Source: an uncultured Clostridia bacterium
Lineage (GTDB): Bacteria; Bacillota; Clostridia; Oscillospirales; Acutalibacteraceae
Direction of reading: 5' to 3'
Length of the DNA: 64,000 bases
Assembly (NCBI GenBank): GCA_947623175.1
Contig: CANQGK010000010.1
Location: 1 to 64,000, forward strand
The translations under genes were made by a program, and so were the position numbers. The notes below the pieces were generated by a model. The model made no database searches and was not told the origin of the DNA. It was given only the letters and a program-made list of their open reading frames with translations. This document shows, one piece after another, positions 399 through 50,810 of this stretch; position 1 is the first letter of the stretch, and each line of letters opens with the position of its first letter.

Positions 399-1697
399 TT
401 AGGCTTCCCCGACCACCTTATCAAGCAGTCTTGCGGAAGTTCGTTTCGCTTCCCTCTTAGAGTGAGCGTAGATGTTCATTGTGGTACTTACGTCAGCGTG
501 TCCGAGCAGTTCCTGCACATCCTTTGGTGCTGCACCGTTGGAGAGCAGATTGCTGGTGAATGTGTGTCTCAGCATATGAAAATGGAAATCTTCAAATCCT
601 TCCAGTTTCTTTTTTGCTGACCTTGTCATAACACCAACCGTACTCGGCGACTCGTATGCTCCATCAGGTCTCAGGCAGACAAAGGATATTTCCTTGTATC
701 CGTCGGGTACTTCCTCGTTTCTCGGTAGGCTGTAGACTTCGTAGTAAGTACGGTCTTTCTCTTTGACCTCTTTGTAGTAGTTGAGGTGGTAGAGTTCGCC
801 ATACTTGAAGCGGTTCTTGTGCTGTTCCGTCTTTGCCTTTCTGAGAATGTCAGCCAGAGTGTCGCAGAAGTCCACGGTGCGGACTTTCTTGCGTTTGGTA
901 GCACCTATCTCTGTCTTGTGCCTTTGCCCGTTGTATCGCATACTGCGTCGCACTGTGAGGTACTGTCCGTCAAGGTTGATGTCCTGCCAAGTCAATGCAC
1001 ACGCTTCTCCGATACGAAGTCCTGTGTAATAGGCTATCTGCATCGGAAGTAATGCAGGATTGTCTTTCTTTTTCAGAAAGTCCTCCAACATCAGAAACTG
1101 CTGATGGTCAATGGTAGGAGCATTGTCAACTTCGCCGTCCTCGTCTGCAAACAGTTCGTATTCCTCTTTCTTTCCCCTCCATACCACATACTGCATAGGG
1201 TTAAAGGAAATCAGCTTCTTAGGGAATACCGCAAATCGGAACGCTCCCTGCAATACTGCTGAGAACAGTCTCAGATACCCTTTGCTGAGTGCCTTTGCTG
1301 TCGTTCCGTCAGGGTTTTGTCCTCCAAAAGTGAGAAAGTCCATAAATGCCTGTAAATGTTCCGCAGTGACCGTTTTCAGCTTTCTGTCCCCGATAGGATA
1401 TTTCTTTATCCTGTTCACTGTTCCCATATACGCCATCACTGTACCGTTGCTCAGATTGCCGGGTTTCAGTTCTTCCTCCACCCACATATCAAGCAGCATA
1501 CCCACAGTGGTGTTCTCAGGCTTTGCCACGAACTTCTTCGCTTCGTAGTCCTCCATTGCCTTGCGGAGCAGACTTTCTGTTTCAGCTTTGCTTTCTGTGC
1601 CTGCAAACTCACGCTGTACCATCTTTCCGCTTTCATCTTCTACATAGAAGCGGTAGTACCATTTCTTTCCTTTTTTTCTTACAGATCCTTTTGCCAT
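399..1697 (-). CDS. int: Tyrosine-type site-specific integrase of the IME
   Basis: A 432-residue Tn916-type integrase that would catalyse integration and excision of the element. The N-terminus (about 1-60) is the basic AP2-like arm-binding domain, followed by a SAM-like core-binding domain (about 65-165). The catalytic domain shows the full set: Arg228 in TGLRIGEA, His374 and Arg377 in HMLRHTF, His400 in LLGH, and nucleophile Tyr410 in MNIYAH. An insertion of about 50 residues (295-345) separates the Arg from the HxxR box, as in other Tn916-group enzymes. It is the leftmost gene and reads toward the proposed attL. Length and catalytic residues suggest it is functional. Confidence 0.95.
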
Positions 1698-1775
1698 TGA
1701 TAAATAGTCTCCTTTCTATCCGTGGCAATCGGAACTGTGACGTATGGTGTGCGTAAAGTAAATAGTGTCACATCC

Positions 1776-1799
1776 GCCGATTGTTTCATCGGCTTTTTT
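1776..1799 (+). terminator. Hairpin with T-run between integrase and repressor
   Basis: GCCGAT and ATCGGC arms flank a 6-nt loop and are followed by six Ts on the plus strand. Both neighbouring genes are on the minus strand, so it would stop antisense transcription entering the repressor. It could also act as a structural element in the repressor-integrase transcript. Confidence 0.4.
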
Positions 1800-1819
1800 G
1801 TTGTCAAAGAGCCACGGAA

Positions 1820-2470
1820 TTATTCTTTTTCGGCAAGCCTTGCTTCGGCTTCCGCTACTATCCCGAAAAGGTCTCCCATCTTCACAGCGGTACGACCTTC
1901 ATCGTAGATATGTAAAATTCCGTCTAAGAATCGTTTCATATCCTCAATCGGTGCTTCCATTTCTTTATGGTAAACTCGTTCCTTAATCGCTCCCGATTCA
2001 ATCGCATATCTCATAAGAGACTGTTTCAGTCCTTCATCTTCTGCAACACGGTCAACCTCTGTCATAGCATCGGAGAAGTGGTGGCAGAGAACGGAATACA
2101 AATCAATCATCTTTCCGAGGAATGTGGTAAGGAGCTGTTGGTGTGGTTCTCCATTCACAACCGTAGACACAGTATCAATGTACTTTCTGATATGTTCTTC
2201 CAAGTCTTTTTCGCAGAGCGTCTTGTTGTCATATTCCTTATCCTCCGAAAGACCTGTGAGCCATTCAGGAGTGGTAAGCAGTGCTTCTGCAAGTCCATTG
2301 ATAATCATTGTTCTCTTTGGGTCTACGCCGTCTGCTTCGTATCTCTGTATCGTTGACTTGTTCACTCCGATACGTTTGCCAAGCTCCGGCATTGTGAGAT
2401 TCAATTCTGTTCGACGTTCTTTTACTCGTTCACCGACCTGTTTTGCAGTGAATGTTATTTCTTTTTTCAA
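1820..2470 (-). CDS. XRE-family transcriptional repressor of the IME
   Basis: A protein of about 216 residues with an N-terminal helix-turn-helix (roughly residues 8-65: VGERVKERR, then GKRIGVNKSTIQRYE). The C-terminal part of about 140 residues has no recognised enzymatic motif. The TTG at 2470 was chosen because a perfect AGGAGGTG lies 6 bases upstream (2477-2484). The longer ATG reading starts upstream of that site. It is divergent from the excisionase gene, and the intergenic region carries three copies of one operator-like sequence overlapping promoters on both strands. This is the layout of a lambda-like immunity switch controlling excision. No LexA-type peptidase motif is visible, so how it is induced is unknown. 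Confidence 0.85.
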   Translation of the reverse strand: MKKEITFTAKQVGERVKERRTELNLTMPELGKRIGVNKSTIQRYEADGVDPKRTMIINGLAEALLTTPEWLTGLSEDKEYDNKTLCEKDLEEHIRKYIDTVSTVVNGEPHQQLLTTFLGKMIDLYSVLCHHFSDAMTEVDRVAEDEGLKQSLMRYAIESGAIKERVYHKEMEAPIEDMKRFLDGILHIYDEGRTAVKMGDLFGIVAEAEARLAEKE

Positions 2471-2494
2471 GGTTTTCACCTCCTGACGAATACA

Positions 2495-2628
2495 AGTATA
2501 GCACATCAAAACCTATTTTGCAACTGTTTTTCTGATAAAAATTAAAAAATGTCTTTAACGAGTTGTAAAATGAGTTGACAAAAGATGGCAAAATAAGTAT
2601 AATGATAATTGCAAAGTTGCAAAATGAG
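2495..2628. promoter_or_regulatory. Divergent promoters with three repressor-operator repeats
   Basis: Rightward promoter: TTGACA at 2575-2580, 17-bp spacer, TATAAT at 2598-2603, reading into the excisionase. Leftward promoter: TTGCAA then 17 bp then TATACT (complement of 2495-2500), reading into the repressor. The 14-mer AGTTGYAAAATGAG occurs at 2561-2574 and 2615-2628 on plus. A variant, AGTTGCAAAATAGG, is the complement of 2512-2525 and covers the repressor -35. The sites flank or overlap both promoters, suggesting repression of excision plus autoregulation. Confidence 0.75.
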
Positions 2629-2651
2629 TGTTTTGAAAGGAGAAATGTGTA

Positions 2652-2867
2652 ATGACAGCAATTAAAATGGGTTTAACTATCGAAGAAGCAGCGGAATGTA
2701 CGGGTATCGGTAGGAACACAATGCGAAAACTGGTGGACTGGGGCAAACTTCCTGTTCTGAAAGTCGGGCGAAAGACGATTATTCGCAGGGATACGTTGGA
2801 GCATTTTATGACGGTCAATCAGGGCAGGAATCTCCTCAATCTAAGCGATGTACGAAAAGTGGAATAA
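2652..2867 (+). CDS. xis: Excisionase-family DNA-binding protein
   Basis: A 71-residue winged-helix protein of the MerR/excisionase (helix-turn-helix 17) type: LTIEEAAECTGIGRNTMRKL is the recognition region, then LPVLKVGRKTIIRRDTLEHF. Such proteins bend att DNA and bias the integrase toward excision. AAGGAG lies 9 bases before the ATG. It is transcribed rightward from the consensus promoter at 2575-2603, under apparent control of the divergent repressor. The oriT-like region and relaxase gene follow. Confidence 0.88.
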   Translation: MTAIKMGLTIEEAAECTGIGRNTMRKLVDWGKLPVLKVGRKTIIRRDTLEHFMTVNQGRNLLNLSDVRKVE

Positions 2868-3110
2868 CCGTTCTCCAAAGCCCTCGGCGTTTGAGAGCGA
2901 AATACACCCCTCGCACAAATCTGCGATTTGTACTCTGGGTATTTCGCCCCTGCGGGGAGCCTGTATCACAACTTCGGACACCACCACCTCAGTTATGATA
3001 CAGAGGAAATTGCGGTGCAATTTCCATTGCTGTCCCACCAATCACCGATAGCTGTGACAGCCGCACCCGACAAGTCGGTTGCGTAATGAGTACGGTATTC
3101 TCAGCGAAGA
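2868..3110 (+). other. Candidate origin of transfer (oriT) region, non-coding
   Basis: There is no convincing gene in this ~250-bp stretch between xis and the relaxase. It is dense with inverted repeats: GCGAAATA 2897-2904 with TATTTCGC 2940-2947, enclosing ACAAATC 2915-2921 with GATTTGT 2925-2931; CCCC-TGC-GGGG 2947-2957; a perfect 9-bp pair 3005-3013/3017-3025; GCTGT-G-ACAGC near 3051-3061; and CCGAC-AA-GTCGG near 3068-3079. Clustered hairpins directly upstream of a relaxase are the usual form of an oriT. The nick site cannot be named from sequence alone. Confidence 0.6.
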
Positions 3111-3122
3111 AAGGAGCAAAGG

Positions 3123-4541
3123 TTGGCAAGACATTCGTTTATTCAGATGTCGAAGCTGCCCAATGTTAAGGGAAGAATCTCATATATCACGAGCCACGCC
3201 AAACAGGAAAACCTTTACGCCACCTATCGTACCGCCGACAATACCTTTTGGAAGAATCTTGCCAGGGAAAGTCAGCAGGAGTTCCAGCGAAGCGGAACAA
3301 CAGGGAAGTGTATCGAAGCAAGGGAGCTAATCATTGCTCTGCCGGAGATTTACACCACCTTTGACCCACAGCAAGTGCTTGAAGAATTTACGAATAAATT
3401 CCGACAGCAGTACGGAGTGGAATGTGTATCGGCTCTGCACCACAACAAACGCAAGACCAACTACCACATCCACCTCATATTCAGCGAAAGGAAACTGCTT
3501 CCCGAACCTGACATCAAGATTGCCACCAGAAGCGTATTTTTCGATGAAACAGGAAAAAGGGTACGAACCAAGAAAGAAATCACAGACGAAAACGGTCAAG
3601 TCCGAAAAGGCTGTACCGTTATCAAAAAGGGGGAAGTTTACGAAAGCCACTTATTCACAACCAAAGACGAGCGTTTCAAAAGTGAAGCGTTCATAGCAGA
3701 AGCAAAGGAAGTTTACACGGAACTTATCAATTCCCACATTTCAGATCCCGAGCAGCGACTGAAAGTGTTTGATAAGAACAGCGTGTATCTCCCGACAAAA
3801 AAGATAGGCAAGAACAACCCCAAGGCTGCCGAAATCGAAGCGGACAATACCGCAAGGCAGGAATGGAACATAACGGCGGATATGGCACTCATATCGGGAA
3901 TTGAAGAAACCAAGATACTGGAAATCAAGAAAGAGGAGATCCACCAAAAAGCAAGTCAGTCCATTAAAGAAAATGGCTGGCTGCCCAACCTATTCCGCAG
4001 TATCGTGAGCAAGGCAAAGGAATTTTTGCAGAACTTAATACGACAGACGGCACTACCGCCAAAGCCGGTACTCAATATGGATATGGCAGAGTTCCGCACA
4101 ATGCAAAAGCTGATGATACGGGTGCAGAACAGGGCAAGAGAAATCCGCAGCTTGCAGGAAGAAGTACCAAAGTTAAAGGCACAGCTTGCCGAAACAAAGG
4201 GAATATTCAAAGGTAAGGAGCGAAAGGCATTAGAAACGCAAATACAGCAGACGGAAGGCAAAATCTCCGCTATGCTTGAAGCAATACCCGATATTCTGAA
4301 AAGTGACGGTTATCCCGATGTGCAGGCATTTATGGCAACCTACCGCAAGGCAGAAGCCGTAGTTGACCATTACAACCGTGAGCTTGCCGAATGGGAACGC
4401 AAGGTCAAGGAAAGCCGCAGACCCGCCGAAAAAGAAAGGTATGCACCGCCCGAAAGAGAAAGTGTCCGTGACCAGCTTAGACGGTTGCAGGCAGAGGGCA
4501 AGCAGAAAACCAAGCACCGATCCCGTGACAGAGAAAGATAG
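3123..4541 (+). CDS. mobL: MobA/MobL-family relaxase
   Basis: A 472-residue conjugative relaxase that would nick oriT and pilot the strand during mobilization. The catalytic metal-binding motif is clear: ALHHNKRKTNYHIHLIF, with His115 and His117 forming the HxH pair and His107 close by. The N-terminal nuclease domain spans about 1-220. The C-terminal third (about 330-395) is a long charged coiled coil ending in a basic tail. The start is TTG 3123, supported by AAGGAG at 3111-3116; an internal ATG at 3147 is the alternative. No VirD4-like partner is encoded nearby, so mobilization must rely on a helper. It is probably cotranscribed with xis. Confidence 0.9.
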   Translation: MARHSFIQMSKLPNVKGRISYITSHAKQENLYATYRTADNTFWKNLARESQQEFQRSGTTGKCIEARELIIALPEIYTTFDPQQVLEEFTNKFRQQYGVECVSALHHNKRKTNYHIHLIFSERKLLPEPDIKIATRSVFFDETGKRVRTKKEITDENGQVRKGCTVIKKGEVYESHLFTTKDERFKSEAFIAEAKEVYTELINSHISDPEQRLKVFDKNSVYLPTKKIGKNNPKAAEIEADNTARQEWNITADMALISGIEETKILEIKKEEIHQKASQSIKENGWLPNLFRSIVSKAKEFLQNLIRQTALPPKPVLNMDMAEFRTMQKLMIRVQNRAREIRSLQEEVPKLKAQLAETKGIFKGKERKALETQIQQTEGKISAMLEAIPDILKSDGYPDVQAFMATYRKAEAVVDHYNRELAEWERKVKESRRPAEKERYAPPERESVRDQLRRLQAEGKQKTKHRSRDRER

Positions 4542-7517: not shown

Positions 7518-7575
7518 GGTTTTGAAACTCGGAATGACTATTGTAAGCTTTAGCTCGACAACATGGTTCGGTCAA

Positions 7576-7850
7576 TAGTCAATGCAATCAGATTACAATG
7601 CGTTTTGCGTGGAACGACGTCCGCGCCCGCTTTGTCGCACGGTCTTACCATACGACAGTATGCTCGCAACCGTGCTTCGCGCGGAACACGAACGGCGTTC
7701 TCATGCAAAATCTTCGACCCGAGTCGGAGCGGATTTTTTCGTCCGGCAAGGAAGAGGACGCGGGAATACTGTCGTATTTCAAGGACGATGACACAGGCGG
7801 CGGAGAAATCCGTCCGCCTCGGGCGCATTGTAATCTGATTGCATTGACTA
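7576..7850 (+). mobile_element. MITE-like element, copy 1
   Basis: A 275-bp GC-rich unit with perfect 27-bp terminal inverted repeats starting TAGTCAATGCAATC, counting the TA at each outer end. It recurs at 8458-8737 (inverted) and 19041-19315 (same orientation). The TA at both ends fits a TA target duplication, as for Tc1/mariner-IS630-type elements. The interior has nested inverted repeats (GCACGGT/ACCGTGC around CATAC-GACA-GTATG; ATACGACAGTAT pairs with a distal ATACTGTCGTAT; a GGCGG/CCGCC stem near the right end). Open frames inside are by-products of GC content. No transposase is encoded. Confidence 0.9.
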
Positions 7851-7913
7851 AGCAAATGAAACTTTTAGATTGATAAAAAAATAAACAAATCTGAATTTAC
7901 GGAGGTGTCGGAT

Positions 7914-8402
7914 ATGACCGTTTCCAAAATTATGAACAAGATGATCGCCTTCTCAAACGGCAATCTTCACGATATCGACCACTTTATCCGCGTTTGGGCT
8001 TACGCCAAAACAATTGCGGAATCGGAGCGGTTGGATGAGGAAACGCAGTACATCCTTGAAGTTGCTGCAATTACCCACGATATTGCCTGCCCGCTCTGCC
8101 GCGAAAAGTACGGCAACGCCAACGGAAAACTCCAGGAAGCGGAAGGCGGGCCATTGGTAGAATCGTTCTTGAGCGACGCCGGTATGTGCGCACATCAGAT
8201 AGAGCGAATAAAATATCTCATAGGCCATCATCACACATTAACGGACATTGACGGTATGGATTATCAAATCCTTATAGAAGCGGATTATATCGTCAACGCT
8301 TCGGAAAACGGATATGACCGGAAGACCATAGAAAATTTTCTGAATCAATTCGTCAAAACAAATGCAGGGAAGCAGCTAATCAAAAGCATATTTTGCCTGT
8401 GA
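7914..8402 (+). CDS. HD-domain phosphohydrolase-like protein
   Basis: A 162-residue single-domain HD protein. Metal-binding residues are His23 (HDIDHFIRV), His55-Asp56 (ITHDIAC), the His105-107 cluster (GHHHTL) and Asp124 (IEADYIVNA), in the order expected for a competent HD phosphohydrolase. Substrate is unknown; such small HD proteins act on nucleotides or phosphate esters. Start 7914 has GGAGG 8 bases upstream; the GTG at 7905 overlaps that site and is rejected. The gene lies between two MITE copies in opposite orientation, so it is bounded by ~275-bp inverted repeats. Confidence 0.85.
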   Translation: MTVSKIMNKMIAFSNGNLHDIDHFIRVWAYAKTIAESERLDEETQYILEVAAITHDIACPLCREKYGNANGKLQEAEGGPLVESFLSDAGMCAHQIERIKYLIGHHHTLTDIDGMDYQILIEADYIVNASENGYDRKTIENFLNQFVKTNAGKQLIKSIFCL

Positions 8403-8457
8403 TAATTATTGTTTTTCGGAGAGATAATGAGGACGGCAAATCGAGGTTTGAAAGGGT

Positions 8458-8737
8458 TAGTCAATGCAATCAGATTACAATGCGCCCGAGGCGGACGGAT
8501 TTCTCCGCCGTCTGTGTCATCGTCCTTGAAATACGACAGTATTCCCGCGTCCTCTTCCTTGCCGGACGAAAAAATCCGCTCCGACTCGGGTCGAAGATTT
8601 TGCATGAGAACGCCGTTCGTGTTCCGCGCGAAGCACGGTTGAGAGCATACTGTCGTATGGTAAGACCGTGCGACAAAGCGGGCGCGGACGTCGTTCCGTT
8701 CCACGCAAAACGCATTGTAATCTGATTGCATTGACTA
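8458..8737 (-). mobile_element. MITE-like element, copy 2 (inverted)
   Basis: A 280-bp copy in the opposite orientation to copies 1 and 3. The extra length comes from a 5-bp tandem duplication (GGAAC repeated) near one end. Both 27-bp ends are intact. Removing the element and one TA gives GAAAGGGTTAAACTATG, joining a Shine-Dalgarno (AAAGGG) to the ATG at 8742 with a 7-base spacer. The insertion therefore split the ribosome-binding site from the following gene. Confidence 0.9.
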
Positions 8738-8741
8738 AACT

Positions 8742-9020
8742 ATGTATCCTATCAGAAAAATAAAGTGTAACGAAGTGGATGAGGCGCTTGCGCTTGCTTT
8801 AGAAGTCTTTATGCAGTTTGAAGCGCCCGATTATGCGCCGGAAGGTGTAACGACATTTAAGCGTGACATCGTTGAAAATGAGGAATTTATCAATAATTGC
8901 AGGCAGGGGATTTGTCCTGTATATGCGGCATTTGACGGTGATAAAATAGTATGTTGTGCGATAAATTCCGCTTTGTCGGGAAGTTACAAGCCAAATACAG
9001 AGCCAAGCGTTCAAGCGTAA
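8742..9020 (+). pseudogene. Truncated GNAT-family N-acetyltransferase remnant
   Basis: The 92 codons begin like GNAT acetyltransferases (RKIKCNEVDEALALALEVF, QFEAPDYAPEGVTTF, YAAFDGDKIVCCAI). Homology stops there, before the acetyl-CoA-binding Q/RxxGxG/A loop, and is replaced by an unrelated tail that ends inside a terminator hairpin. A full domain needs about 140 residues. In addition MITE copy 2 has separated the Shine-Dalgarno from the ATG, leaving no ribosome-binding site. The gene is broken at both ends and probably inactive. Confidence 0.75.
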
Positions 9021-9037
9021 AACTTGGACGCTTTTTT
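9005..9037 (+). terminator. Terminator overlapping the GNAT remnant stop
   Basis: AGCGTTCAAG (9006-9015) pairs with CTTGGACGCT (9023-9032) with one G:U, followed by six Ts. The stop codon of the acetyltransferase remnant falls in the loop. Confidence 0.8.
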
Positions 9038-9070: not shown

Positions 9071-9102
9071 AAAAAGAAAACAGATGCTTTACACATCTGT
9101 TT
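9071..9102 (-). terminator. Leftward terminator outside the left inverted repeat
   Basis: AAACAGATG (9078-9086) and CATCTGTTT (9094-9102) form a stem with a 7-nt loop. Read on the minus strand it is followed by a T-rich run. It lies directly downstream of the leftward promoter at 9168-9196, so transcripts made in the present orientation of the invertible segment would stop here. Confidence 0.7.
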
Positions 9103-9114
9103 ATAAGGTAATGC

Positions 9115-9140
9115 TTCGTAGAGTATTCTCATTGACGATA
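9115..9140 (+). repeat. Inverted repeat, left arm (IRL)
   Basis: The 26 bases are the exact reverse complement of 10549-10574. Tyrosine recombinase crossover is presumed to occur within this repeat. Confidence 0.95.
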
Positions 9141-9167
9141 GAGAAAAAACTCAAAATAACAATTATA

Positions 9168-9196
9168 ATTATACATAGTGTTGTCGGATTTGTCAA
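9168..9196 (-). promoter_or_regulatory. Consensus sigma-A promoter inside the inverton, leftward
   Basis: On the minus strand TTGACA (complement of 9191-9196), a 17-bp spacer and TATAAT (complement of 9168-9173) give a perfect consensus. Transcription starts about 20 bp before IRL and now runs into the terminator at 9071-9102. After inversion the same promoter would read through the right repeat into the gene at 10592, giving a leader of about 60 nt. Confidence 0.9.
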
Positions 9197-9343
9197 GGTG
9201 CCGAATGAAATTCGTTTAAAAAAGTCGAAAACGCTTTCTTCGACACTTGCATTTATGAACTCTATGTATGAATTAGCAATATTTGGGTTCTGTTTTCAGT
9301 CACAATGTCCGTCAGCCAATCGTAAATGAAAGGTAGAAAAGAA

Positions 9344-10474
9344 ATGGCAAGAAAAGGTGAAAATATTTACAAAAGAAAAGACGGGCGTTGGGAGGGAAGA
9401 TATATCTCTTCTTATGACGGCAATGGCAAAGCAAAGTATAAATATCTGTATGCAAGGACTTACTCGGAAGTGAGAACAAAATTAGTCAAAGCTAAGAATG
9501 AAAATATATCCATCACAGAAAGCCGCACGGATAAGGAAAAATACGAGCTTTGGATAGCTGAATGGCTGAGGATAAAAAGAAACTATGTTAAAGAATCCAC
9601 CTATATCAGATACCGAAATACAATAGAAAATCACATCAAGCCGCAACTCGGAAAATACCCGATCAATAGGATAAGTTCAACATTGCTTGAAAACTTTGTT
9701 TCAGAAAAACTGCAAAACGGCAGATTGGACGGAAAGGGCGGGTTATCTCCTAAAACAATGACGGACATCGTTATCATTATCAAAGAGTCTTTAAAGTACG
9801 CACAATCATCGGGGATAACGATAATATGCAATTTTGATAGGATATCGTTGAAGAAACCCAATAAGGAAATGAGAGTATTAAGCGTTTCGGAGCAGCAGCG
9901 GCTGCTTGAAGTTCTCTTTGACGGATTTGACAGATATAAATTAGGAGTATTTCTTTGTATGTATACCGGAATACGCATAGGTGAATTGTGTGCCCTGAAA
10001 TGGAAGAATATATCTTTAAGCGAAAGGACATTAAAAATTGAGCAAACTATGCAACGCCTTCAAAATGAAGATATGAACGCCTCGTACAAGACAAAAATTT
10101 TAGTGACCGAGCCGAAAAGTGATGCGGCGTTAAGAATTATACCTCTGCCAGATTTTGTTATAGAAGCTGTAAAACCTTTTGTAAGCTCGCCCGACACATA
10201 TTTGTTATCGGGAGATTGTAAATCAATTGTCGAACCGCGAATAATGCAAAACAAATTTAAGAAATATTTGAAGGAAGCTCAAGTGGTTGATACAAATTTT
10301 CACACCTTGAGACACACCTTTGCTACAAGATGTATCGAATCGGGCTTTGACGCCAAAACACTAAGCGAGATTTTGGGGCATTCAAGCGTTAAAATCACTC
10401 TCGACCGCTATGTTCATTCATCAATGCAGTTAAAACGAAGTAATATGGAAAAGCTATCGCTTGTTATAACGTAG
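9344..10474 (+). CDS. Tyrosine recombinase, presumed invertase of the 26-bp repeats
   Basis: A protein of about 376 residues with a phage-type integrase architecture. It has an N-terminal AP2-like arm domain (about 5-50, GENIYKRKDGRWEGRYI), a SAM-like core-binding domain (about 65-165) and a catalytic domain. All catalytic residues are present: Arg211 (TGIRIGELCALKW), His320 and Arg323 (HTLRHTF), His346 (ILGHSS) and Tyr356 (LDRYVHSS). Start 9344 follows GAAAGG; an upstream in-frame ATG at 9326 is possible. It is the only gene between the perfect inverted repeats, with no excisionase, relaxase or cargo. A DNA-inversion role is therefore more likely than integration. A solo integrase remnant is the alternative. 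Confidence 0.92.
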   Translation: MARKGENIYKRKDGRWEGRYISSYDGNGKAKYKYLYARTYSEVRTKLVKAKNENISITESRTDKEKYELWIAEWLRIKRNYVKESTYIRYRNTIENHIKPQLGKYPINRISSTLLENFVSEKLQNGRLDGKGGLSPKTMTDIVIIIKESLKYAQSSGITIICNFDRISLKKPNKEMRVLSVSEQQRLLEVLFDGFDRYKLGVFLCMYTGIRIGELCALKWKNISLSERTLKIEQTMQRLQNEDMNASYKTKILVTEPKSDAALRIIPLPDFVIEAVKPFVSSPDTYLLSGDCKSIVEPRIMQNKFKKYLKEAQVVDTNFHTLRHTFATRCIESGFDAKTLSEILGHSSVKITLDRYVHSSMQLKRSNMEKLSLVIT

Positions 10475-10504
10475 TTTCCTATTCGCCGTCAAAATTATAG
10501 TCAC

Positions 10505-10549
10505 AAAAATCGGAACAGCCCTTATACAACAAGGGTTGTTCCGATTTTT
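10505..10549. terminator. Terminator of the recombinase gene at the right repeat
   Basis: A 19-bp stem with one mismatch (10505-10523 with 10531-10549) ends in TTTTT and touches the right inverted repeat. It insulates the downstream operon from recombinase transcription in the present orientation. After inversion it would lie at the far, left side. Confidence 0.88.
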
Positions 10550-10574
10550 ATCGTCAATGAGAATACTCTACGAA
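10549..10574 (-). repeat. Inverted repeat, right arm (IRR)
   Basis: Exact reverse complement of 9115-9140. It sits between the recombinase terminator and the Shine-Dalgarno (AAAGGAAGGA) of the gene at 10592. Confidence 0.95.
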
Positions 10575-10591
10575 TAAAGGAAGGATGGCAT

Positions 10592-10912
10592 ATGGGTAAT
10601 TATGAAGTTAACGAATTACCGGAACTCGACAAAGATAAGTTAATCGAAATACTTACCGATGAACTTCCCGTTTTGAGAGCAAAAATAGGCATTTCTCAGG
10701 ATGATATATCAAGTATTATCGGTATTTCTCGGCAAACATACAGCGGTATCGAAACAAAGAAAAGAAAAATGTCTTGGAACATCTTTCTGTCTTTAATATT
10801 GTTTTACGGCTATAATGAAAAAACAACCGATCTTGTCGAAGCTATCGGCGCATTTCCGCAAGAATTGAAGCAAACGTTTAATATAAACAGGCGAAGGAAA
10901 GAAGATAAGTAA
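10592..10912 (+). CDS. XRE-family HTH regulator, first gene of the phase-variable operon
   Basis: A 106-residue DNA-binding protein with a Cro/C1-type helix-turn-helix at about 27-85 (LRAKIGISQDDISSIIGISR, QTYSGIETKKRKMSWN). A short basic C-terminus follows. It is preceded by AAGGAAGGA. No promoter matching consensus is seen between the inverted repeat and the ATG, so expression likely depends on orientation of the invertible segment. Its stop overlaps the next start by one base (TAATG). It may autoregulate the operon; its target is unknown. Confidence 0.8.
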   Translation: MGNYEVNELPELDKDKLIEILTDELPVLRAKIGISQDDISSIIGISRQTYSGIETKKRKMSWNIFLSLILFYGYNEKTTDLVEAIGAFPQELKQTFNINRRRKEDK

Positions 10913-11505
10913 TGCCGCATTCAATAATAGAAATGAATTGTCCCGGTTGCGGGGCAAGGGTATCCACAGATCAAAAAGTGTGTGAGTGGTGTCATAAGCC
11001 GATCATAATAGCAACATTTAACAGCGTATATTCTATGCCGATGCCCGAAGTAAATAAATTTGCAGGGGCGTATCACAAGGCTTTGGCTGAAAATCCCGAT
11101 AATCGGGAATTAAATAATTCGGCGGCTATGTGCTATTTGAAACTCAAGCTCTATGATAAAGCGTTACCTGCTTTTGAAAAAGCTATGGAAGATAATTTCG
11201 ATAATTCCGAAACTTTCTTCTATGCGGCAATATGCCTTTTACAGGGAAAAAAAGCATTTTTGCATCAAAGACCTACGATCGATAAGATCTTGGAATACAT
11301 TAATGCGGCTCTTATGATCGAGCCTAAAGGTATTTATTATTATTTTCTTGCGTACATAAAATATGATTATTTTGCAAGGAAATTTTTTAAAACTTCTCCC
11401 ACCTATCAAGAAGCATTGACAATTGCGCAAGAGCAGGGATATTCTCCTTTTGACGCCGAGCAACTCTTTGAAATTCTTGGTGTGGATAGACCAAACGGGT
11501 TTTAA
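10912..11505 (+). CDS. Zinc-ribbon plus helical-repeat (TPR-like) protein
   Basis: A 197-residue soluble protein. Residues 9-31 form a zinc ribbon with two CxxC pairs (CPGCG and CEWCH). Residues about 45-150 look like TPR helices (NRELNNSAAMCYLKLKLYDK, ALPAFEKAMEDNFDNSETFF). It has no signal peptide or membrane segment. The architecture suggests a cytoplasmic adaptor. Zinc ribbons recur in genes accompanying SPFH or Psp-like membrane-stress proteins, consistent with the SPFH gene downstream. Its start overlaps the preceding stop by one base; an in-frame ATG at 10933 is the alternative start. Confidence 0.65.
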   Translation: MPHSIIEMNCPGCGARVSTDQKVCEWCHKPIIIATFNSVYSMPMPEVNKFAGAYHKALAENPDNRELNNSAAMCYLKLKLYDKALPAFEKAMEDNFDNSETFFYAAICLLQGKKAFLHQRPTIDKILEYINAALMIEPKGIYYYFLAYIKYDYFARKFFKTSPTYQEALTIAQEQGYSPFDAEQLFEILGVDRPNGF

Positions 11506-11560: not shown

Positions 11561-12229
11561 ATGGCTTGCATACAACTACACATAAAAGAACACTATAAAC
11601 ACTATCGGCACATTCAACGCCTGTGTAAAGGCAGAACCGAAGAGCAAAAGAAGGTAATTAAATATTTCTTAGGCAGCGGCGGCTGCTTGTCTGTCGGTAT
11701 GCCGGACGAGGAATACGAAGCGGCGGTTATGGCTAAAGCAAGAAGTATGGACTTTAAGCAGAAGGCTCTTAACAAGCTTGGAGTTGACGAATCTCAGGTA
11801 AATGAGATCGAACCGGTTCATTTTGAGGGTTATTATTTTGATAACCAGAAAACCTATGCTAAGCAGGGCAGAGATCGCAAATGGAGAAGTTCTGCATACC
11901 AGATCTCTTGGATCTTCTTCTCCGATATTCAGGTTTATGTTTATCAATACACTTTCAATATGGATCAGGAAGGCAAGAAGGAATCTACCGAAGAGTACTT
12001 CTATAAAGATATCACAAATTTCTCAACCTCTTCCGATACCGTAGAAAAAGAAGTACTCGATAAAATCAGCTGCAGCGGCGAGGCTACATATTCCCGTGAG
12101 AATGTTGATACTAATAGGTTTACTTTGGTTGTTCCCGGCGATAAATTTTACTGTTCTATGGAGCAGTCTGATTATACCGAGAAAGCTATCCAGGGTATGA
12201 AAGCGAAACTCAGAGAGAAAAAAGGATAA
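11561..12229 (+). CDS. Unknown protein of the phase-variable operon
   Basis: A 222-residue protein with no family I can name. It is soluble. The N-terminus is His/Tyr-rich (HIKEHYKHYRHIQRLCKGR). A central beta-rich part contains FEGYYFDN, SAYQISWIFFSD, IQVYVYQYTF and STEEYFYKDITNF, ending with FTLVVPGDKFYCSME. The alternating aromatic strands suggest a beta-sandwich or PH-like domain. GGAGG precedes the ATG. It lies in the same direction as its neighbours with a 55-bp gap, and is probably cotranscribed. Confidence 0.65.
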   Translation: MACIQLHIKEHYKHYRHIQRLCKGRTEEQKKVIKYFLGSGGCLSVGMPDEEYEAAVMAKARSMDFKQKALNKLGVDESQVNEIEPVHFEGYYFDNQKTYAKQGRDRKWRSSAYQISWIFFSDIQVYVYQYTFNMDQEGKKESTEEYFYKDITNFSTSSDTVEKEVLDKISCSGEATYSRENVDTNRFTLVVPGDKFYCSMEQSDYTEKAIQGMKAKLREKKG

Positions 12230-12294
12230 CAGAAGAAAGATTTGGCTAATATTCGTGTGGCAGTCTATTAGTCGGCGGTATGGAGGGCGATCCA

Positions 12295-12780
12295 ATGGAA
12301 ATGCCAAGTCGGGAAGAACAGATTATTGCTGAGAAATACGTTCTCGAAAGGTCTTTGGACAGACCTGACACAGACGCAAAAAAAGCAATAAAGAGCGTAG
12401 TTGTTTATTTGTTGTCGTCATCGGCAATAGGAATTTCTATGTTTTATCTGTTCTCTCGGCTTGGCGTTTTCGCATTGTTTCCCGATGCCGTAAACGGATT
12501 TAGGGAGGCGCATGGCATTTGGTTCGGTTTTATTTTTGTTGCTTTGGTTTATGCTCTTATCGGAATATTTTGCTTGAAGAAAGCAATAATCGGCTGCATA
12601 AAGCTGTATCAGCACTATGCTCCGGAAGAAATCAGACGTCGATGCCTATTCAAGCCCACCTGTTCCGAATATGCAATATTGGCAATTGAAAAATACGGTT
12701 TATTTATAGGTTTGATAAAAACATACATCAGGCTTTTCAAAAAATGCAAAGGAAACATTTATCGAATAGATTATCCTTGA
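12295..12780 (+). CDS. Membrane protein with C-terminal YidD-like domain
   Basis: A protein of about 161 residues. Two transmembrane helices lie at about 32-55 and 75-100. The C-terminal part resembles YidD, the membrane-protein insertion efficiency factor: IKLYQHYAPEE, CLFKPTCSEYAILAIEKYG, and a closing KKCKGNIYRIDYP keeping the two Cys positions. Canonical YidD is 70-90 residues, lacks these N-terminal helices and sits in the rnpA-yidD-yidC locus near the origin. This is a divergent, fused and relocated version. Start 12295 was chosen for GGAGG 7 bases upstream; an in-frame ATG at 12280 overlaps it. It may assist insertion or anchoring of the other membrane components encoded here. Confidence 0.75.
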   Translation: MEMPSREEQIIAEKYVLERSLDRPDTDAKKAIKSVVVYLLSSSAIGISMFYLFSRLGVFALFPDAVNGFREAHGIWFGFIFVALVYALIGIFCLKKAIIGCIKLYQHYAPEEIRRRCLFKPTCSEYAILAIEKYGLFIGLIKTYIRLFKKCKGNIYRIDYP

Positions 12781-12847: not shown

Positions 12848-14011
12848 ATGTCTCTATTTAACAAAAACCCTAACGAGGCGGCTTTTGCCGGTGGTAAGAA
12901 GCATTGGGCTGATGTAATTAAAAACACAGGTCCCGGTGAACTTTTGATTTGGCGTCAACCGGAAGAAGATTTCAATACCAATTCTACACTGATTGTTATG
13001 CCCGGTGAAGAAGCGATCTTCGTTAAAGGCGGCACAGTAGCGCGGGTATTTGAAAACGGAACATATAAGCTCTCGACAGAAAACTATCCGTTTATCGGCC
13101 GCCTCAGGAATGCTTTTACCGGAGGAATAAGTACCTTTAATTGCGTTGTGTATTTTGTTCGCAAGGCAGACAGTAAGGAAATTCGATGGGGAACGGAAAC
13201 TCCGATCCAAGTCAGAGATAAAGTTTGGGGAGTACGAACCGACGCAAAAGTAAGAGGCGCATATAAGGTAAGAATTGAAAATCCCGCCAAGTTCTTAGAG
13301 AAGTTAATCGGTAACAATATTCCGTTCCAATTCCAAGAAGAACTTGAGAAATACTTTGCAAGCGAGTTTCAAGGAAAGATAAAATCCGCTGTTTCAAAGT
13401 TTTTGAACGGATTGGAACAAGAACTTATAGGTATTGACGCCTATATGGACGAGCTCTCCGAAAGTATCGAACCCTACATAGATGACATTGTCGGCGATTA
13501 CGGTCTGAAATGTGTAAAATTCTCTTTGGCAGGATTGGATATTGATACAACAAAGTATGACGCTCTTGATGCCTCACAAATTGAATTGATTGCAAGGCAA
13601 AGAGGATACCAGGGCGATAAAGCCGGATTGGATATTCTTGGTACTGATTGGGCAAGGGTACAAGGCATCAATGTTTTGAGAGATCTTGCAAACAATCCCG
13701 GTGCAGGCGGTGTTGCTGCTGCCGGTGCAGGAATGGGTATGGGAATAGGAGCCGCCGGAGCATTCGGTTCGATAGCGCAGCAAGTGTTCACCCCCGCAAA
13801 TAACGGTTTCGCCCCTCAGCAACCTTCTAATCCTACACAAAACGCTCCTTCCGGCAGATTTACTCAGAATGGGGCTACAACTGCTACTTCTACAGACAAT
13901 GCTGAAGATCCTGTGGAAGTATTGGGAAAACTCAAAAAGTTATTGGATGCAGGTCTGATCGAGCAGGCGGAATATGACGCAAAAAAAGCCGAAATACTCG
14001 GAAGAATGTGA
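12848..14011 (+). CDS. SPFH-domain protein with C-terminal SHOCT domain
   Basis: A protein of about 387 residues. Residues about 15-250 form an SPFH/band-7 domain of the 'virion core protein' type (WADVIKNTGPGELLIWRQPE, MPGEEAIFVKGG, IRWGTETPIQVRDKVWGVRT), like B. subtilis YdjI. A Gly/Ala-rich flexible linker spans about 275-310, then a Gln/Asn-rich stretch. The end is a SHOCT motif (PVEVLGKLKKLLDAGLIEQA, EYDAKKAEILGRM). There is no transmembrane helix; such proteins oligomerise at the membrane through partners. YdjI-type proteins act with PspA/LiaH-like membrane-stress systems, so a membrane-protection role is a reasonable inference. AAGGAGG precedes ATG 12848. Confidence 0.88.
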   Translation: MSLFNKNPNEAAFAGGKKHWADVIKNTGPGELLIWRQPEEDFNTNSTLIVMPGEEAIFVKGGTVARVFENGTYKLSTENYPFIGRLRNAFTGGISTFNCVVYFVRKADSKEIRWGTETPIQVRDKVWGVRTDAKVRGAYKVRIENPAKFLEKLIGNNIPFQFQEELEKYFASEFQGKIKSAVSKFLNGLEQELIGIDAYMDELSESIEPYIDDIVGDYGLKCVKFSLAGLDIDTTKYDALDASQIELIARQRGYQGDKAGLDILGTDWARVQGINVLRDLANNPGAGGVAAAGAGMGMGIGAAGAFGSIAQQVFTPANNGFAPQQPSNPTQNAPSGRFTQNGATTATSTDNAEDPVEVLGKLKKLLDAGLIEQAEYDAKKAEILGRM

Positions 14012-14021
14012 GGTTTTAATT

Positions 14022-14702
14022 ATGAACAAAAAATCTATTCTTTACATACTGCTTGATTTGATTTTTCTCGCAGTTTTTAATACCGTATTTTTTGTCTTGG
14101 GAGGCACAGAACATTCTGCCTCGGTTTGGATTTCGTATGGATTTATACATTTTGCTTACTTGATGATACTTGCTACTCCTTTTCTTGTTCGCAAAAGCAG
14201 CAGCGCTTCGGTTTTTGGATTTTCTCTGTACTCAGCGTCAACAGTCTACTTTTTTGTGGAATTTGCAGTTGGATTGATATTTATTTTTATCGGCAGCGAT
14301 TCTTTTAAGGCGTCTTTGGCGATTCAAGTTATAATTGCGGGTATTTATGCCATATTGCTCGTTTCTAATTTGATTGCAAATGAGGATACGGCTGATAATA
14401 TTGAACGACACGAGGATGAGGTCGCATACATTAAAAATGCCGCCTCAAGAGTAAAGCTGCTTGTAGGTAAAGCATCCGAAAAAAGCGCGAACAAGGAAAT
14501 TGAAAAAGCATACGACCTGCTTCATTCGAGTCCGACTAGTTCGATTTCCACGGTTAAATCTCTTGAGGAACAGATAAATAATAAGGTTGCCGAACTCGAA
14601 AATGTTGTTGCTTCAAATAATACGACGGCGATCATTACTATTTCGGGTGAACTTATTGCAATGACCGAGGAACGCAACAGAAAACTCGGAATGGAAAATT
14701 AA
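14022..14702 (+). CDS. Four-TM membrane protein with cytoplasmic coiled coil
   Basis: A protein of about 226 residues. Four predicted transmembrane helices lie within residues 5-125 (YILLDLIFLAVFNTVFFVLG, WISYGFIHFAYLMILATPFL, and two more). A soluble C-terminal half of about 100 residues is rich in Glu/Lys heptads (ANKEIEKAYDLL, VKSLEEQINNKVAELENVV), likely a coiled coil. No enzyme motif is seen. It starts 10 bp after the SPFH gene and ends the operon, so it is the likely membrane anchor or partner of the SPFH-SHOCT protein. Family assignment is not possible by eye. Confidence 0.7.
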   Translation: MNKKSILYILLDLIFLAVFNTVFFVLGGTEHSASVWISYGFIHFAYLMILATPFLVRKSSSASVFGFSLYSASTVYFFVEFAVGLIFIFIGSDSFKASLAIQVIIAGIYAILLVSNLIANEDTADNIERHEDEVAYIKNAASRVKLLVGKASEKSANKEIEKAYDLLHSSPTSSISTVKSLEEQINNKVAELENVVASNNTTAIITISGELIAMTEERNRKLGMEN

Positions 14703-17898: not shown

Positions 17899-19043
17899 AG
17901 ATACTGTTGGTAGGAGCGGGCGGTTATGCCGCGCTTTATGTTGACCTATTGCTTAAAGGCAGGATTCCCGACGCGGATTTGGAAGGCATCGTCGAGCCGT
18001 ATATGGAGCGGTGCGTTTTTCGTGACAAAGTTTTCGCCGCAAAGGTTCCGGTGTACGCCACTATAGGAGAATTTTACAGCCGCCACTCGGCGGAGCTTGC
18101 GGTGATTTCCACCCCGCCGTTCCTGCATCGTGAACAGTGTATCGAAGCGCTTTCTCACGACTCGAACGTCCTTTGCGAAAAGCCTGTTGCCCCCACCGTG
18201 GAAGAGGCGTGGGAAATGCTTGCCGCCGAGGAACGGTACGGCAGATTTATCGCTGTCGGGTACCAATGGTACTTTTCCGACGCTATACAGTCGCTAAAGC
18301 AGGATGTGCTCGACGGCTTACTTGGCAAGCCTATATCACTTAAGACGGCGATCAGCTGGCCGCGCGACCGCGCGTATTACCAAAGGGGCGGCGGCTGGGG
18401 CGGCAAAATAACTTATAAAGACCGTCCGGTTTTTGACTCCGTCGCTTCCAACGCCTGCGCCCATTTTCTGCATAATATGCTCTTTTTGCTGGGAGAGCGT
18501 ATGGACGTTTCGGCGCGCGTCGACTCGTTCGAGGCCGAATGCTACCGCGCAAACGACATTGAGAGCTTTGATACTTGCTCGATAGCGATGAAGGCGGGCG
18601 GCGCCTCTCTTTACTTCGCCGCGACGCATGCCGCCGACAGAAATCGGGATCCCGAGTTTGTCTATAGGTTCGAGCGGGCGGTAGTGACCTTTACCCAAAG
18701 CGAGCATACGGGTATCACGGCAGTTTTTGATGACGGCAGCGTAAAGAATTACGGCGATCCGTTTGCCGACGATTTTAAGAAGCTTGCGGACTGCATAGCC
18801 GCCGTGCGAGAGGGAAGACGCCCGATCTGCACGGTTGCGACCGCTCTGCCGCATACCGAGCTGATAGGCGATATCCACGCGAAAACGCCGATTAGAACAT
18901 TTGCGCCCGATTTTCTTCGTGCCCGTACGGATACGGAAGGCGTTTACGTAGAAGGACTGTACGAACGGCTTTACGAAGCATACGACCGCACATGTCTTCT
19001 CTCAAAAACTCACAGCGACATTTTTGCTTCGACAGTCGAATAG
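17895..19043 (+). CDS. Gfo/Idh/MocA-family oxidoreductase, stop codon supplied by a MITE
   Basis: A 382-residue NAD(P)-dependent oxidoreductase: ILLVGAGGYAALYVDLLLKG Rossmann motif, CEKPVAPTVEEAW hallmark, and an alpha/beta substrate domain with FDSVASNACAHFLHNMLF. It overlaps the preceding paralogue (ATGA). The stop TAG is the first three bases of MITE copy 3. Removing the MITE and one TA gives GAATAAGCGG, so the original stop was TAA at the same codon and the protein is unchanged. The operon terminator lies 8 bp beyond the MITE. It probably acts with the first oxidoreductase in a two-step sugar conversion. Confidence 0.85.
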   Translation: MKILLVGAGGYAALYVDLLLKGRIPDADLEGIVEPYMERCVFRDKVFAAKVPVYATIGEFYSRHSAELAVISTPPFLHREQCIEALSHDSNVLCEKPVAPTVEEAWEMLAAEERYGRFIAVGYQWYFSDAIQSLKQDVLDGLLGKPISLKTAISWPRDRAYYQRGGGWGGKITYKDRPVFDSVASNACAHFLHNMLFLLGERMDVSARVDSFEAECYRANDIESFDTCSIAMKAGGASLYFAATHAADRNRDPEFVYRFERAVVTFTQSEHTGITAVFDDGSVKNYGDPFADDFKKLADCIAAVREGRRPICTVATALPHTELIGDIHAKTPIRTFAPDFLRARTDTEGVYVEGLYERLYEAYDRTCLLSKTHSDIFASTVE

Positions 19044-19315
19044 TCAATGCAATCATATTACAATGCGTTTTGCGTGGAACGACGTCCGCGCCCGCTTTGT
19101 CGCACGGTCTTACCATACGACAGTATGCTCTCAACCGTGCTTCGCGCGGAACACGAACGGCGTTCTCATGCAAAATCTTCGACCCGAGGTGGAGCGGATT
19201 TTTTCGTCCGGCAAGGAAGAGGACGCGGGAATACTGTCGTATTTCAAGGACGATGACACAGGCGGCGGAGAAATCCGTCCGCCTCGGGCGCATTGTAATC
19301 TGATTGCATTGACTA
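19041..19315 (+). mobile_element. MITE-like element, copy 3
   Basis: A 275-bp copy in the same orientation as copy 1. The left repeat has one mismatch (AATCATATT instead of AATCAGATT), and the interior differs at only a few positions (for example CGAGGTGGAG versus CGAGTCGGAG). It inserted at the TA of the upstream gene's stop codon. This demonstrates the TA target duplication directly and places the element inside an otherwise intact operon end. Confidence 0.9.
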
Positions 19316-50628: not shown

Positions 50629-50633
50629 AAACT

Positions 50634-50794
50634 CGATAGAGGCGCGGTAAGTCATGAGTATTACCCTTATTTTTTGACGTACAGGTCGGGGTAGGAAAGG
50701 GAATACCGCCGAAATGATGTGCGTTCTGTTCGGCGCACATTGTTGGTTTACCGCAAAATATGCTGTAAACTGTCACTTTTGTGGAGAGCTATCG
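50634..50794 (+). ncRNA. Lysine riboswitch (L box) aptamer
   Basis: Conserved L-box blocks appear in order: AGAGGCGC, GAGTA, GGAAAGGGAATACCGCCGAA, the variable stem CGGCGCACA, ACTGTCA and GGAGAGCTATC. The closing P1 stem pairs CGATAG (50634-50639) with CTATCG (50789-50794). Lysine binding should stabilise the aptamer and allow the downstream terminator to form, shutting off the carrier gene. Confidence 0.93.
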
Positions 50795-50810
50795 GTGGGG
50801 TTTGAAATTT

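Follow-up and report, generated by a model that had tools for sequence, protein, structure and literature searches.

A candidate self-contained promoter inverton in an uncultured Clostridia bacterium and the family of recombinase cassettes around it

Can a DNA segment that carries its own recombinase gene and its own promoter switch a neighboring operon ON and OFF in an uncultured Clostridia bacterium? The question is raised by a 1.46-kb cassette in the first 64,000 nucleotides (nt) of contig CANQGK010000010.1 (GenBank assembly GCA_947623175.1, family Acutalibacteraceae). We refer to this whole stretch as the window and give positions in it unless a locus is named. The assembly comprises 2.38 Mb in 54 contigs and is 94% complete. 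An initial annotation, made from the letters of the window, described the cassette as a self-contained promoter inverton currently in its OFF orientation. We consider this description very probably correct, and it is the comparison with related cassettes that supports it; perfect parts alone would not have shown a switch.

Anatomy of the cassette

According to the initial annotation, perfect 26-bp inverted repeats enclose one intact tyrosine recombinase gene, an exact consensus promoter faces out of the left end toward a leftward terminator, and only a Shine-Dalgarno sequence separates the right repeat from a six-gene operon. All of these elements were recovered. Two others, the rightward terminator at 9005 to 9033 and the bidirectional terminator at 10505 to 10549, had been absent from that description. 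The features are as follows (L154 is the nearest related cassette, described below).

9005 to 9033, plus strand: second terminator, rightward, outside the left repeat and facing the cassette (from folding)
9078 to 9102, minus strand: leftward terminator outside the left repeat (folding z, −4.96)
9115 to 9140, no strand: left inverted repeat and putative recombination site, 26/26 complementarity, one mismatch to the L154 site
9168 to 9196, minus strand: outward promoter TTGACA-17-TATAAT, 12/12 consensus positions, 17-nt spacer
9224 to 9244, minus strand: weak hairpin resembling a terminator, immediately upstream of the promoter, a possible but doubtful insulator
9326 to 10474, plus strand: tyrosine recombinase with Phage_integrase (E = 1.8e-26) and SAM-like core-binding domains
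10505 to 10549, no strand: bidirectional terminator within the right end, 19-nt arms (from folding)
10549 to 10574, no strand: right inverted repeat and putative recombination site, 26/26 complementary to the left copy
10575 to 10591, plus strand: 17-nt gap with the Shine-Dalgarno sequence AAAGGAAGGA, followed by an ATG at 10592

The two repeats lie 1,408 nt apart. They are the longest exact inverted repeat in the 3-kb region among pairs whose starts are more than 1 kb apart; in 200 dinucleotide shuffles of that region, the longest distant inverted repeat was 15 nt. By eye, each site reads TCGTAGAG-TATTCTC-ATTGACGA, with two imperfect arms flanking an asymmetric 7-nt core. Because of this asymmetry, strand exchange at the core would be expected to invert the segment rather than delete it. 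The 24-nt repeat core has no further copy in the 2.38-Mb genome at up to 3 mismatches.

These parts suggest how the cassette might operate. In the assembled orientation, the outward promoter would fire leftward into the terminator outside the left repeat. At the other end, the hairpin at 10505 to 10549 lies between the recombinase gene and the right repeat, which it abuts; it has an A-run on its 5′ side and a T-run on its 3′ side, and its folding energies are −27.7 kcal/mol on one strand and −28.4 kcal/mol on the other (z, −9.2 and −8.3, respectively). It would keep read-through from the recombinase gene out of the operon. With the promoter running into a terminator and read-through blocked, the six-gene operon would be OFF. 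The hairpin at 9224 to 9244 is doubtful as an insulator because its folding z is −0.64.

The encoded recombinase is predicted to cut and rejoin the two identical end sites, inverting the 1.46-kb segment. The same promoter would then stand about 60 nt ahead of the first operon gene, an XRE-type regulator, and the operon would be ON. By arithmetic, the end of the −10 element would lie 53 nt from the outer edge of the repeat, with a further 17 nt to the ATG; the RNA start is therefore expected about 60 to 65 nt before the ATG. Promoter invertons have short inverted repeats at their ends and a promoter inside that faces one of them, with a gene starting just beyond the other, and the cassette shows this layout. 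As a result that would speak against a switch, the initial annotation had named a uniform orientation in relatives together with a constitutive promoter between 10575 and 10592. The 17-nt gap leaves no room for such a promoter, and orientations differ among relatives, as described below.

An integrase-type recombinase

A single intact, full-length open reading frame (ORF) between the repeats encodes the recombinase, whose true start is probably Met7, at about 9344. Residues R217, K264, H326, R329, H352, and Y362 are invariant in an alignment of 24 family sequences; we take them to be the R-K-H-R-H-Y catalytic set of tyrosine recombinases. Models of FimB/FimE-type invertases (NF007370 and NF007371) gave 19.1 and 21.4 bits, far under their cutoffs of 221 and 222, and a Pfam search found no resolvase (serine recombinase) domain in the ORF. 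The protein appears to be of the integrase type, with a presumed action like that of an invertase.

Since the recombinase gene lies inside the segment behind a 186-nt leader, flipping might serve to control the recombinase itself rather than the operon. We find this scarcely credible. The best inward promoter in the leader matches 9 of 12 consensus positions and none reaches 10, and a flip would leave the recombinase's upstream sequence, which is inside the segment, unchanged.

Inverted repeats enclose most related recombinases

Matches to the recombinase at E ≤ 1e-60 were found in 21 of 198 related genomes, 43 of 391 genomes of the class, and 10 of 70 genomes of the genus, each set including the source genome. 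We assembled 85 places from 26 loci, 57 new ones (6 of 63 being duplicates), and two of three further loci (the third is L032); eight were dropped for short flanks. Enclosing inverted repeats with a score of at least 16 were present at 57 of the remaining 77 relatives, which had both flanks. When left and right flanks were paired across different loci, 37 of 5,852 pairs reached 16, some of them pairs of closely related sites. Integrases of the integrative and conjugative element (ICE) type had enclosing repeats in 0 of 9 cases, none scoring above 11; two of the 11 matches, both fragments, were excluded.

Further analyses used 58 cassettes, namely, the 57 scoring at least 16 and L036, whose contig begins at an arm. 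Near-duplicates were retained (L079 and L101 from one genome, L071 and L072 from one genus). Arm pairs were perfect in 43 of the 58, with a median arm length of 25 nt. Beyond these genomes, a score of 16 was reached at 10 of 12 loci examined from 15 matches in plasmid and phage collections, including Vescimonas and Enterococcus plasmids and human fecal contigs, and at 8 of 24 viral-contig loci examined out of 78. The repeat of the cassette in the window did not occur in the viral contigs, and relaxed patterns for the repeat and for the promoter retrieved L154 alone.

On a different contig, the source genome carries a further relative with 45% identity. This cassette (L031; G000:C3:70154-89266) has perfect 25-nt enclosing repeats unlike those in the window. 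Because site sequences are specific to each cassette, more than one could operate in parallel within a genome, as the two cassettes of the source genome, with their different sites, suggest. L031 stands before a TetR gene and a 2,259-residue VWA/DUF7601 protein and by eye is also in an OFF arrangement.

Some members have unusual ends. In L036 (1459 to 1524) and L037 (10191 to 10312), a second right-arm copy in direct orientation lies 43 to 44 and 101 nt outward, respectively, start to start; the inner copy was chosen by hand in both. The arms of L086 and L111 are very long (166 and 119 nt). Homologues of one L112 protein begin beyond both ends of L086, and homologues of one L100 protein do so at L111; with homologous genes at both ends, a flip could exchange targets rather than turn one ON or OFF. 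In three related viral contigs (L173, L175, and L176), a distant family member is followed directly downstream by short homologous pieces whose orientations are opposite; these may mark a phage segment that inverts.

Outward promoters and outer terminators recur across the family

Leader promoters matching at least 11 of 12 consensus positions faced outward in 28 of the 58 cassettes and inward in 3 (sign test on discordant loci, P = 1.6e-6); perfect 12/12 promoters numbered 18 outward and 0 inward. In 16 of the 28 cassettes with an outward promoter, the −10 element ended 51 to 62 nt from the outer repeat edge. A terminator just outside the repeat accompanied the promoter side in 27 of the 58 cassettes and the far side in 7; none had both, and 24 had neither (hypergeometric P = 0.009).

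This recurrence bears on whether the cassette is simply a mobile element, such as a small integrative element or prophage relic with inverted-repeat ends, whose promoter and target layout is incidental. Several observations point that way. Phage integrases are close relatives of the recombinase (phrog_1, E = 6e-68), and family members occur at unrelated loci. The G+C content is 37% in the cassette and 40% in the operon versus 45% in the whole window, which is consistent with acquisition. In addition, two IMG/VR contigs (L157 and L158, identical in their overlap) carry a relative beside phage-like genes; their single arm is joined to a flank that shares about 80% identity with the terminator flank of cassette L147. 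They may perhaps represent a phage that integrates at such sites, which would hint at where the cassettes came from. However, promoters facing out of one end, outer terminators on one side, and gene starts near the other end recur across relatives, a layout that a neutral mobile element does not explain, and we consider a mobile element with an incidental layout unlikely. Within the genome, the repeat core is confined to the two inverted sites, and no close relative of operon gene 1 or 3 lay beside an empty site, although the cassette flanks themselves were not searched for one. L157 and L158 had also been considered as an opposite-orientation partner of L147 and were dropped, their left side being phage-like and each contig holding one arm only.

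Both arrangements occur among relatives

We assigned arrangements by side: a target on the promoter side was called ON and any other OFF. The target flank was judged by eye for some loci, and L046 has outward genes on both flanks. Cassette L039, with a repeat score of 14, was added by hand for the side comparison only. Automatic assignments of the first gene, which picked gene 2 for the window, did not enter the counts. Operons encoding S26 signal peptidase and camelysin-like proteins adjoin the promoter end of the cassette in L034, L035, and L038 and the opposite end in L036, L037, L039, and L067. Members of a second gene family adjoin the promoter end of L082 and the opposite end of L079/L101, L105, L112, and L125.

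The nearest cassette, L154, has a recombinase 67% identical to that in the window, a repeat that differs by one base, and a 12/12 promoter. Its 39-nt promoter block is identical at 37 of 39 positions, compared with 66% identity for the recombinase gene and 75 of 125 positions for the remainder of the leader; conservation beyond that of the neighboring gene is expected of a selected element. The promoter sequence CAACACTRTGTATAATNATA is preserved at 4 distinct loci. Beyond the promoter-side repeat, L154 has no terminator but instead the Shine-Dalgarno sequence AGAGGAAGGATTAAATG and a gene start (ATG). The first 22 residues of this target resemble, by eye, the N terminus of the XRE target of cassette L147. 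L154 would be an ON arrangement, the clearest case for this locus. In the window and in L040, L053, L145, L147, and L161, the target begins with the same type of XRE gene, always on the OFF side, and L154 would be their ON counterpart. Around other XRE homologues (L060 to L066), the fetched flanks contained no match to the recombinase.

Assembly breaks in one further genome (G159) may also reflect two orientations. Contig C17 opens with the left repeat, complete from its first base, and contig C21 stops at the last base of another repeat copy, which is preceded by a terminator hairpin. From the behavior of de Bruijn graphs, we infer that a break at the repeat is expected if the reads hold both orientations.

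One human fecal contig (L153; MT836507) has 27-nt flanking repeats and, by eye, a terminator outside the 3′ side of the recombinase gene; it is perhaps another ON arrangement.

The putative target operon

Six codirectional ORFs follow the right repeat, as first annotated.

10592 to 10912, plus strand: gene 1, XRE-type helix-turn-helix regulator (Pfam)
10912 to 11505, plus strand: gene 2, TPR protein (Pfam) with a zinc-ribbon-like N terminus (CxxC pairs by eye)
11416 to 11445: promoter-like site inside gene 2, 10/12 consensus positions
11561 to 12229, plus strand: gene 3, rare and without a Pfam family (Pfam and homologue search)
12280 to 12780, plus strand: gene 4, YidD domain (Pfam) with N-terminal hydrophobic segments (by eye)
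12848 to 14011, plus strand: gene 5, SPFH/Band_7_1 protein (Pfam) with a SHOCT tail
14022 to 14702, plus strand: gene 6, membrane-protein-like, without a Pfam family, C-terminal half charged (by eye)

SPFH proteins of the gene 5 type accompany PspA-type membrane-stress operons in Bacillus subtilis, and our guess is that the operon has a role in membrane protection. A second Band_7_1 (SPFH) gene is located elsewhere in the genome, outside the operon (G000:C3:24444-25046). In PADLOC, gene 1 drew weak helix-turn-helix matches only, and the six other proteins tried drew none. Beyond gene 3 itself, homologues turned up in one of 198 relatives at E ≤ 1e-5 and in one of 391 genomes of the class at E ≤ 1e-6; gene 3 was set aside as a clue to function, since these matches are distant and have no recognizable operon neighbors in the short stretches fetched. 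As the first gene of the operon, the regulator could feed back on the switch.

Evidence against a working switch

How far do the exceptions weaken the case for a switch? At the locus itself, a single orientation is seen in the one assembly of the source genome, and the promoter-like site inside gene 2 could drive genes 3 to 6 independently, giving a basal supply. Across the family, 20 of the 77 relatives lack enclosing repeats at the threshold and 30 of the 58 cassettes lack an outward promoter matching at least 11 positions. Homologous outward-facing genes lie on opposite sides in 18 locus pairs and on the same side in 35, but the pairs come in clusters from a small number of gene families, are not independent, and include some neighbors that are not targets.

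The promoters of the cassettes that show opposite sides are also mostly poor matches to the sigma-70 consensus, with scores of 9 (L034, L035, L036, L037, and L067), 10 (L038, L082, and L105), 6 (L112), and 8 (L125); the only strong ones are in L079/L101 (12) and L039 (11). The ON and OFF labels therefore rest on side and terminator. For L154, only 22 residues of the target are present on the contig, which becomes a tail-type gene past recombinase residue 355 and so may be chimeric there. The G159 break site carries an extra repeat copy, which might itself trouble an assembler.

Direct comparison of orientations within a species likewise gave one arrangement. In Enterococcus raffinosus, the query record and three others (covering 93 to 100% of the locus) have all pieces on one strand and thus one orientation; a fifth record matches the left flank only. 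For the Er676, Enterococcus faecalis, and Vescimonas cassettes, no second record covering 80% appeared among the matches listed. One of these comparisons had 147 matching records, of which 30 were listed; its 146 partial matches were left out.

Strong promoters tend to be more frequent in the cassettes that appear to be OFF. A promoter matching at least 11 positions is found in 16 of the 27 cassettes with a promoter-side terminator versus 1 of the 7 with a far-side terminator (P = 0.09). Without L031, the far-side group falls to 0 of 6 (P = 0.02); the terminator call in L031 sits on the target side and looks like a leader hairpin on inspection by eye, which also showed a missed terminator on the other side of this cassette. 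Strongly driven ON states could be costly and rare, or the far-side group could be of another design.

These points invite the alternative that a former switch is now locked OFF, with a dead recombinase or dead sites and the operon either permanently silent or driven from inside gene 2. The lone OFF orientation at this locus, the 10/12 site in gene 2, and the predominance of OFF calls (27 of the 34 cassettes in which an outer terminator allowed a call) are in its favor. We nevertheless consider it very unlikely, because the arms are perfect, the recombinase is full length with every catalytic residue kept, and conservation of the promoter block exceeds that of the adjoining gene. The description as a self-contained inverton in its OFF orientation, by comparison, draws on the repeats enclosing most relatives, the bias of promoters toward the outside, outer terminators that never occur at both ends of one cassette, targets found on both sides, and the apparent ON state of L154.

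A possible portable module in front of many unrelated operons

Pfam searches of 30 flanking proteins from 17 loci gave matches of many kinds, some below the curated cutoff, and several proteins had no match. At different loci, the flanks encode VWA and adhesin-like proteins, a signal peptidase with camelysin (one camelysin match being below the cutoff), zinc-ribbon and GDSL/VWA proteins, a LytTR response regulator with a GHKL kinase, YidD, subtilase, dynamin, an Eco57I-type methylase, GGDEF and trypsin-FHA proteins, cohesin/dockerin proteins, and an FtsK/SpoIIIE-FHA protein. The last resembles EssC of type VII secretion, and TasA is a relative of the camelysin-like proteins.

On balance, we lean toward viewing these cassettes as a portable, autonomous phase-switch module of about 1.4 kb, which combines a recombinase with its two sites, a promoter facing outward, and terminators acting as insulators and which has spread sporadically through Clostridia and into enterococci. 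Its targets would include adhesins, matrix-fiber-like genes, an EssC-like secretion ATPase, a restriction-modification methylase, dynamin-like and signaling genes, and the XRE-YidD-SPFH operon of the window.

Two cassettes were seen in named isolates or species. L143, on a plasmid of Vescimonas fastidiosa (NZ_AP023417), has 29-nt repeats and lies near genes for a dockerin protein and an S26 signal peptidase. L149, an enterococcal counterpart in E. raffinosus (NZ_CP081847), has 18-nt flanking repeats and stands before a helix-turn-helix gene and accessory secA2/secY2.

Other features of the window

About 5 kb to the left of the cassette is an integrative element or remnant (399 to 4541) with an ICE-type integrase (399 to 1697), an XRE gene, and a relaxase-like ORF (3123 to 4541, by eye). 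An element of about 300 nt occurs three times (7563 to 7873, 8393 to 8731, and 18892 to 19303) with similar six-frame peptides; two copies form an inverted pair around an HD-domain ORF (7905 to 8402). It is possibly a miniature inverted-repeat transposable element or an intergenic repeat. A lysine riboswitch lies at 50629 to 50799 (104.8 bits).

Discussion

In the Hin flagellar switch, a serine recombinase gene and an outward promoter lie within the flipping segment, and in the fim switch of Escherichia coli, a short promoter-only segment of 296 bp is served by recombinases encoded outside it. The cassette resembles the former in holding both recombinase gene and outward promoter but differs in encoding a tyrosine recombinase with a different site anatomy. 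Hin is named as a recombinase within its own segment in PMC5903667, and the Salmonella switch is also named in PMC11868660. The fim switch, mentioned in PMC5903667, inverts a promoter by means of a tyrosine recombinase, as proposed for the cassette. PMC5903667 also describes RecV of Clostridioides difficile, which likewise combines a tyrosine recombinase, inverted repeats, and ON/OFF control in Clostridia; there, one recombinase serves several segments, none of which encloses it, whereas the cassettes each carry their own.

Closer in layout is a fimbrial locus of Providencia stuartii, which has a putative invertible segment with a recombinase ORF enclosed by inverted repeats next to genes for a surface structure (PMC5903667, part available). 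That segment is 844 bp long with 14-bp imperfect repeats and belongs to another phylum, and no cassette family is reported in that part of the article. Closer in host is a gut-community survey that ties Clostridia inverton group 139 to tyrosine recombinase (invertase) group 35 (PMC11892184, part available). Its invertons also lie near tyrosine recombinases in Clostridia, and orientation changes were measured there; two group 139 examples with coordinates are about 0.25 kb, too short for a recombinase gene.

Another survey (PMC8748976) removed invertible regions containing or overlapping coding sequence; surveys that discard such regions would miss these cassettes. Among the matches listed in open-license PMC, no title or opening of an abstract described a Clostridia-wide family of recombinase-containing promoter cassettes. 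Promoter invertons are already known; a portable, recombinase-containing Clostridia family that serves unrelated operons did not appear in our searches and is apparently undescribed. The single locus is of moderate interest, and the family to which it points is the better finding.

If this view of the family is right, phase variation in Clostridia would be carried in part by a plug-in cassette that gives operons random ON/OFF control. The targets of phase variation would widen past surface polysaccharides and pili to secretion, restriction, signaling, and membrane-related genes. The cassettes would also offer a signature by which such switches could be recognized in the sequences of uncultured bacteria, and they would supply many recombinase/site pairs of differing specificity.

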